A DNA stretch of 13,314 bases from Deltaproteobacteria bacterium (GTDB taxonomy: Bacteria > CG2-30-53-67), in the NCBI GenBank assembly GCA_013151235.1, contig JAADIO010000041.1, positions 42,086 through 55,399 on the forward strand, given 5' to 3'. The notes beneath the pieces are model-generated. The model was not told where the DNA came from, searched no databases, and saw only the letters and a program-made list of their open reading frames with translations. The translations under genes were made by a program, and so were the position numbers. Positions 12,855 through 13,078 of the stretch are shown piece after piece (positions within the stretch are counted from its first letter, which is position 1; each line of letters opens with the position of its first letter).

Positions 12855-12894
12855 TTTGTTCATTTTCTTTGCTCGCCCAAAGAAAACGAACCAA
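12855..12894. repeat. Large AT-rich hairpin
   Basis: Two 17-base arms (12855-12871 and 12878-12894) pair at 15 of 17 positions around the loop CTCGCC. The inner 9 bp, TTTTCTTTG with CAAAGAAAA, are perfect. It is the tgt-proximal edge of the hairpin array. Confidence 0.7.
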
Positions 12895-12917
12895 AAGAAA
12901 AGGCGCCCGGTCACTCG

Positions 12918-12934
12918 GTCCCGCAAAGCGGGAC
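12918..12934. repeat. Short perfect hairpin
   Basis: GTCCCGC and GCGGGAC (7 bp) pair perfectly around the loop AAA. It lies between the large AT-rich hairpin and the nested structure. Confidence 0.65.
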
Positions 12935-12949
12935 TTCCCTGCGCTTCTC

Positions 12950-13031
12950 GAAAGGTCGGGGGGCTCGATAACACGCTTCGCGTGGTGGTCCGTTCCGGAC
13001 CACACGATCTCGCCCTTTTTCCCGACCTTTC
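12950..13031. repeat. Nested three-stem inverted-repeat structure
   Basis: An outer perfect 11-bp stem (GAAAGGTCGGG 12950-12960, CCCGACCTTTC 13021-13031) encloses two back-to-back perfect hairpins with TTC loops: CACGC/GCGTG (12972-12984) and GTGGTCCG/CGGACCAC (12985-13003). The whole can fold as a multi-branch junction. Confidence 0.72.
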
Positions 13032-13061
13032 TGCGATGCTCGGCTTCGTGAAGGGGTTGCT

Positions 13062-13078
13062 CTCCCCCTGCGGGGGAG
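13062..13078. repeat. Short perfect GC-rich hairpin
   Basis: CTCCCCC and GGGGGAG (7 bp) pair perfectly around TGC. No T-run follows, so it is not a standard terminator. Confidence 0.6.

Follow-up and report, generated by a model that had tools for sequence, protein, structure and literature searches.

In the telomerase RNA pseudoknot, the L1 pyrimidines run parallel to the purine strand of S2 and form major-groove U.A-U triples of the pyrimidine motif. L1 crosses the S2 major groove in this direction in H-type pseudoknots, as it does in telomerase RNA, and a pyrimidine strand that lies parallel to a purine strand in such a register is the pattern of T(U)•A-T(U) and C+•G-C triples. Triplexes of the ENE/MALAT1 type block exonucleases in eukaryotes. 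Bacteria have RNA pseudoknots with base triples of the ToxI type (type III toxin-antitoxin), which occur as short tandem repeats before a toxin gene. REP-like elements are known as dispersed intergenic palindromic repeats, often arranged as inverted dimers, across phyla (Di Nocera et al. 2013, PMC3733652).

In the window, by which we mean the whole stretch of 13,314 nucleotides that was analysed, the tRNA-modification gene tgt adjoins a ~ 250-base non-coding stretch that is one copy of a scattered repeat. The whole structured element occupies 12850..13089 on the minus strand, with approximate ends set by the extent of similarity among genomic copies and by a fold z of -6.2. Against dinucleotide shuffles, the minus-strand fold reached z = -6.2 and the plus-strand fold z = -4.8, with 0/200 shuffles as good in each case. 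The original prediction had described a dense array of inverted repeats here, and all of them were found where it had placed them, in sequence that folds far above its dinucleotide-shuffled counterpart. The arms of its "17-bp arm pair" do exist, as a 22-nt pairing of 12850-12871 with 12878-12899 (86%) that has a perfect-or-wobble core of 14 bp (12858-12871 / 12878-12891), but they are not an isolated hairpin, as the loop and the 5' neighbour make up a covarying pseudoknot with a triple-helix signature. This pseudoknot/triplex core, which the first reading missed, is the most informative feature of the element. A coding function was rejected, as the three overlapping ORFs in the element matched no Pfam or NCBIfam family, which is consistent with the earlier suggestion that its translations turn up as spurious hypothetical proteins. 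No Rfam 15 match at gathering score was found in the window or at the elements in 18 loci, and a permissive Rfam search returned only sub-threshold, chance-like matches. Within the open literature (subscription journals lay mostly outside the scope), we found no description of the element sequence or of triplex pseudoknot repeats.

Two other features of the window were observed. An ORF of more than 1576 aa on the minus strand (2-4729), with repeated carboxypeptidase-regulatory-like segments and a serine/glycine-rich tail, probably encodes a surface protein. A second, unrelated repeat at 13138-13245 (GAAGTCGTAAAAAGTCG...) carries a REP-like palindrome, CCGTTCATGGTTCGACAGGCTCACCACGAACGG; units related to it sit within the S2 loop of other element copies (L005/L015, L036/L046), where a short stretch, TTCTTTG, is apparently duplicated.

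The host genome holds at least 16 full or partial copies at E < 1e-3 (query 12840-13100), several of them cut short at contig ends, where the repeat has broken the assembly. The sister species has copies in 17 places and one other genus of the family in one, and an unrelated AT-rich genome gave eight matches to the hairpin part. These many copies in the host and its sister species bear out the description of a dispersed structured intergenic element. In four relatives (G002-G005), tgt and queA, the latter named by position only, are separated by a short spacer (~ 40 bp where read) with no element, and in a fifth (G001) the spacer carries other repeats. As the relatives' tgt-queA spacer is without the element, the window copy is a lineage-specific insertion. 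A similar difference was observed in Methylomonas, where L099 has a copy at a site that in L074 is a ~ 60-bp spacer. The suggestion of a non-autonomous mobile element or structured RNA gains support from the copies, from compensatory changes and from the absence at the relatives' orthologous site; the original prediction had staked itself on further copies in the host and relatives and on compensatory changes in relatives, and both were found.

The wobble pairs point to the minus strand, the one that reads TTTCTTTT, as the meaningful, folding strand, because they are G.T there and A.C on the other strand; over the family, outer-stem wobbles were G.T or T.G in 69 cases and A.C or C.A in 5. All of the following parts lie on this strand and are given from its 5' side. 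The element begins with a conserved end, GGTTTTTCC (13081..13089), present in several genomic copies and resembled by GGTTTT in some Methylomonas copies, and with a 7-bp 5' hairpin, CTCCCCC-GCA-GGGGGAG (13062..13078), placed by the window-family alignment. The branched domain is closed by P1, whose 5' strand CCCCTTCAC (13048..13056) pairs with the 3' strand GTGACCGGG (12906..12914), the first drawn from window-family helix covariation and the second from double changes in the window family. Inside P1 lie two conserved internal-loop sequences: GAGCATCGCAG (13031..13041), also found in Methylomonas and Betaproteobacteria, and GAGAAGCGCAGGG (12937..12949), also found in Methylomonas and other proteobacterial copies. 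Window-family helix covariation likewise defines P2, the outer stem (AAAGGTCGGG, 13021..13030, with CCCGACCTTT, 12951..12960), and an inner stem (GGGCGAGAT, 13007..13015, with ATCGAGCCC, 12961..12969). Between the inner strands are a variable 7-8-bp hairpin with double changes, TGGTCCGGAACGGACCA (12986..13002), and a 5-bp hairpin, CACGC-GAA-GCGTG (12972..12984), with CACGC/CATGC compensatory variants. A further 7-bp hairpin, GTCCCGC-TTT-GCGGGAC (12918..12934), is seen as an inverted repeat and in the window-family alignment. Across 12 copies, the window-family helices had 13 pairs with double changes, whereas shuffles had 5.7 +/- 1.9; the paired share of cells was 91.3%, compared with at most 49.5% when the alignment was slid. 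Copies in Methylomonas, G151, G065 and G029 follow a similar plan, in which P1 runs up to S1, the interior branches and there are variable hairpins. Two internal-loop sequences, GAGCAYCGSAG and GAGNAGCGCAGG, are common to the window family, Methylomonas and, in part, the betaproteobacterial copies.

The core forms the 3' part of the minus strand, after the P1-closed branched domain, and reads CGCC-T-TTTCTTTT-G-GTTCGTTTTCTTTG-GGCG-AG-CAAAGAAAATGAAC over 48 nt. In it, the loop of a 14-bp hairpin pairs with 4 nt that lie just upstream, which makes an H-type pseudoknot. The S1 5' strand CGCC (12902..12905) and the S1 3' strand GGCG within the hairpin loop (12874..12877) were assigned from pseudoknot covariation. 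L1, TTTCTTTT (12893..12900), is the predicted third strand and the exact mirror of TTTTCTTT in S2. The S2 5' arm GTTCGTTTTCTTTG (12878..12891) follows from arm pairing and covariation, and the 2-nt linker L3, AG (12872..12873), from the sequence and the core alignment. The S2 3' arm CAAAGAAAATGAAC (12858..12871) contains AAAGAAAA, the purine strand of the predicted triplex; 99.7% of S2 cells were paired in 68 cores.

A scan of 84,980 species genomes with the pattern TTCTTTTGGNNNNTTTTCTTTG-N(3-8)-CAAAGAAAA returned at least 120 stretches. In 83 of the 120 listed, the 4 nt before N-L1 were a perfect complement of the 4 nt that open the hairpin loop, compared with a mean of 9.8 and a maximum of 16 in shuffles and at most 7 at other offsets. 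A second regularity among the listed stretches was that L1 mirrors the 5' strand of S2. The mirror was exact in 237/246 cores and in 79/82 cores with a non-canonical S2, so the third strand follows changes in the stem. Mirrored cores make up eight sequence classes, with 7, 8 or 9 triples, and one genome alone holds five of these classes. Counted as genome-by-class rows, 138/144 were mirrors, compared with a mean of 104.6 and a maximum of 113 under a permutation that ignores relatedness.

Most cores were gathered by a pattern fixed to TTCTTTTGG. Loci searched without requiring the mirror gave variants with C elsewhere that were still exact mirrors. An unbiased purine/pyrimidine pattern, which still required pyrimidine runs, was run on 386 + 43 genomes; among the 386 it found TTTCCTTT/TTTCCTTT in G151, a 9-mer TTTCTTTTT/TTTTTCTTT beside the 8-mer in G065, and a further new host in G088. 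From G422 and G409 come TTTCTCTT/TTCTCTTT and TTCTCTTT/TTTCTCTT, in many copies. In 68 diverse cores, double changes were observed in 4/4 S1 pairs and 10/14 S2 pairs, with 0/500 shuffles as good when relatedness was ignored; 96.4% of cells were paired, compared with 78.5% in shuffled and ~ 50% in slid alignments, and the covariation score was 0.446 vs 0.129. Such a core was absent from all 3000 dinucleotide-shuffled versions of the window element.

The third strand thus runs parallel to the purine strand, keeps register with it and changes together with it, as in a major-groove triplex pseudoknot. At the level of sequence, the covariation establishes for the dispersed family a conserved single-strand fold with a pseudoknot and a third strand that changes with the stem. 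From the mirroring of the S2 5' strand by L1, an uninterrupted row of 7-9 base triples, T(U)•A-T(U) and C+•G-C, is predicted. We infer that the triplex would form in the cell, with the caution that C+•G-C triples need protonation and that L3 is only 2 nt long (0 in some Selenomonadales copies). In Xanthomonas loci L063, L138 and L159, a small hairpin repeat (TTGACCAGCCTTCGGCTGTGGTAAAGCGC) was observed inserted between S1 and L1, with S2 intact.

The listed core hosts include Betaproteobacteria (Comamonadaceae, Acidovorax, Polaromonas), Gammaproteobacteria (Xanthomonas, Lysobacter, Dyella, Methylomonas, Aeromonas), Flavobacteria (Bacteroidota), Selenomonadales and Desulfobacterota, as well as unnamed lineages. 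Copy number was often high, with up to 107 per genome in the 43 genomes reached from loci, and the 107-copy genome alone has five core classes, all mirrored. Among the genomes sampled from the taxonomic class of G422, 15/143 had the canonical core. A phage origin was rejected, with 5 exact matches in 2.9 million viral contigs and none in phage records. Sequences beside the core were also observed in some lineages. In Selenomonadales and Gammaproteobacteria (L108, L253-L272, L086, L099 and others), the core is preceded at 50-150 nt upstream by hairpins with an NGGA loop (e.g., GGCCGTCATGGATGACGGCC, GACAGGATGTC), which resemble CsrA/RsmA-binding hairpins. In Methylomonas (L074, L099, L125, L145), CTCGGCTGTCGGGCCGAGACCCGACA, which looks like a second small pseudoknot, lies ~ 5-30 nt downstream of the core and is followed by a conserved terminal hairpin, GTCGCG-N-GCGAC.

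The element has no preferred orientation to its nearest genes (upstream 34:32, downstream 34:43), a result that speaks against a leader, a riboswitch or a terminator. No U-run follows the S2 hairpin on the minus strand. An intrinsic terminator was rejected on the missing U-run and the mixed orientations, and the idea of a transcription boundary (terminator or cis-regulator) fell on the same two points. They also count against the alternative that the copies are a multi-copy ncRNA gene or a stabiliser of transcript 3' ends, retained because they serve the host and not as selfish DNA, in which the triplex pseudoknot would block exonucleases. The conserved one-strand fold with its strong 3' structure fits such a role, as does the persistence of copies at sites common to diverged species (L074, L099), but copy number and presence are erratic even within a family and insertions are absent in close relatives; we consider this explanation unlikely.

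The arrangement of copies differs between hosts. G422 has 22 head-to-head pairs, mostly 433-460 nt apart, and 21/22 are heterodimeric, joining a GGTAC-type arm to an arm of another kind, and this suggests copying of the pair as a unit. At L294-L322 in this genome, a palindromic repeat, GGCGGGTTACGGCGCT..GCGCGCCTAACCCGCCCTACG, was seen to follow most arms at a near-constant ~ 70-110 nt outside. In G390, direct repeats of 15-97 bp flank five of ~ 43 copies and start 7-9 nt past the 3' end (maximum 14 in a control of mismatched pairs); either insertion with duplication of the target or tandem duplication could account for them. In G065, the single long direct repeat proved to be flanking sequence of a second copy nearby, and G151 showed no fixed-length target duplication. 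Regular target duplications and defined ends were not found for the element. Of the two marks of a MITE, terminal inverted repeats and a fixed duplication, inverted pairs were observed in some hosts only and the fixed duplication was not found. A composite transposon was rejected for the Methylomonas pairs (one pair checked): the interior gene is host DNA, because a relative from which one flanking copy is missing has the gene conserved. L261 and L263 show tandem units of a gene-end fragment plus the element (two and three copies), which suggests local duplication at elements.

Alternatively, the element would be transposed as single-stranded DNA by a Y1 (HUH) transposase, in the manner of REP/RAYT or IS200/IS605. 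In favour of this, the copies are hairpin-rich and dispersed and form head-to-head dimers as REPINs do, an arrangement known for REP-like elements (PMC3733652). Against this, Y1_Tnp (PF01797) was absent from four element-bearing genomes (G029, G390, G391, G397), including the 107-copy one, and only 1/20 Y1 loci in the hosts had the element in its ~ 1.5-kb flanks, so that action of Y1 in cis was already weakened; this origin is very doubtful. The reverse transcriptase domain (PF00078) was absent in six of 14 hosts (G000, G065, G088, G390, G409, G391), and the TnpB domain (PF07282) was missing in 13/14 and found in 1/14. Y1_Tnp, RVT_1 and TnpB were each rejected as a common mobiliser, as none is common to the hosts. 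A double-stranded H-DNA boundary, with the mirror repeat acting in duplex DNA rather than in a folded single strand, is scarcely credible: a conserved mirror repeat with a short spacer is an H-DNA signature, but the S2 palindrome with 10/14 doubly changed pairs, the S1-loop covariation and the strand-specific G.T wobbles are left unexplained by it and mean that one strand must fold on itself.

Our preferred explanation, to which we give a probability of roughly 60%, is an undescribed family of dispersed non-coding elements that would act through the fold of one strand, as RNA or single-stranded DNA, and would be mobile. The branched 5' domain (P1, the conserved internal loop GAGCAYCGCAG / GAGNAGCGCAGG, P2 and variable hairpins) would run directly into the H-type pseudoknot on the 3' side, where L1 is predicted to lie in the major groove of the 14-bp S2 and to form 7-9 consecutive pyrimidine-motif triples, with the same topology as the pseudoknot of telomerase RNA. 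The element would insert between genes irrespective of their orientation and, in some hosts, may spread as head-to-head pairs. Its most likely working mode would be for a transcript or a displaced single strand to fold into a rigid, hard-to-unwind 3' structure, which may serve as a signal, for recognition and/or protection, to the machinery that copies or moves the element. The copies, the pairing, the folding strand, the three-way covariation and the presence or absence at orthologous sites are read directly from sequence; RNA or single-stranded DNA as the active form, the link to mobility and the machinery are inferred. A broader claim, that the family is an unrecognised cross-phylum class of mobile non-coding elements, defined by a pyrimidine-motif triplex pseudoknot and mobilised as an RNA or single-stranded DNA substrate without the Y1 transposase, TnpB or reverse transcriptase tested, is put forward tentatively, with the odds somewhat against it. 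If true, a natural triple helix would have been identified from three-strand covariation alone, in several phyla and at up to 107 copies, and missing from the RNA family library. It would give a set of "junk" intergenic repeats a testable structural reason, and it raises the questions of what recognises the triplex pseudoknot in so many bacteria and how the element spreads without the tested Y1, TnpB or reverse transcriptase genes.

Compared with known systems, the element resembles REP/BIME/REPIN sequences, with their RAYT or TIRYT, in its dispersed extragenic palindromic copies, often as dimers in opposite orientation, and in its cross-phylum spread. It differs in being 120-250 nt long with a pseudoknot core and a branched domain, and in that several of its hosts are without a Y1 transposase and there is almost no adjacency. 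TnpB / IS200-IS605 omega RNA is likewise structured, has a pseudoknot and lies in a mobile DNA unit, but the TnpB C-terminal domain is absent in 13/14 element hosts and there was no Rfam match. Unlike ToxI, the copies are dispersed, single or inverted, and no common neighbouring gene was seen. The core has the same topology as the telomerase RNA pseudoknot, whereas the element is a bacterial dispersed repeat without a template or reverse transcriptase link, and its predicted run of triples is longer and unbroken (7-9), includes C+.G-C and has a very short L3. Dispersed structured repeats are a known kind, and it is the triplex pseudoknot, the cross-phylum spread and the lack of a link to the tested transposases that set this family apart.
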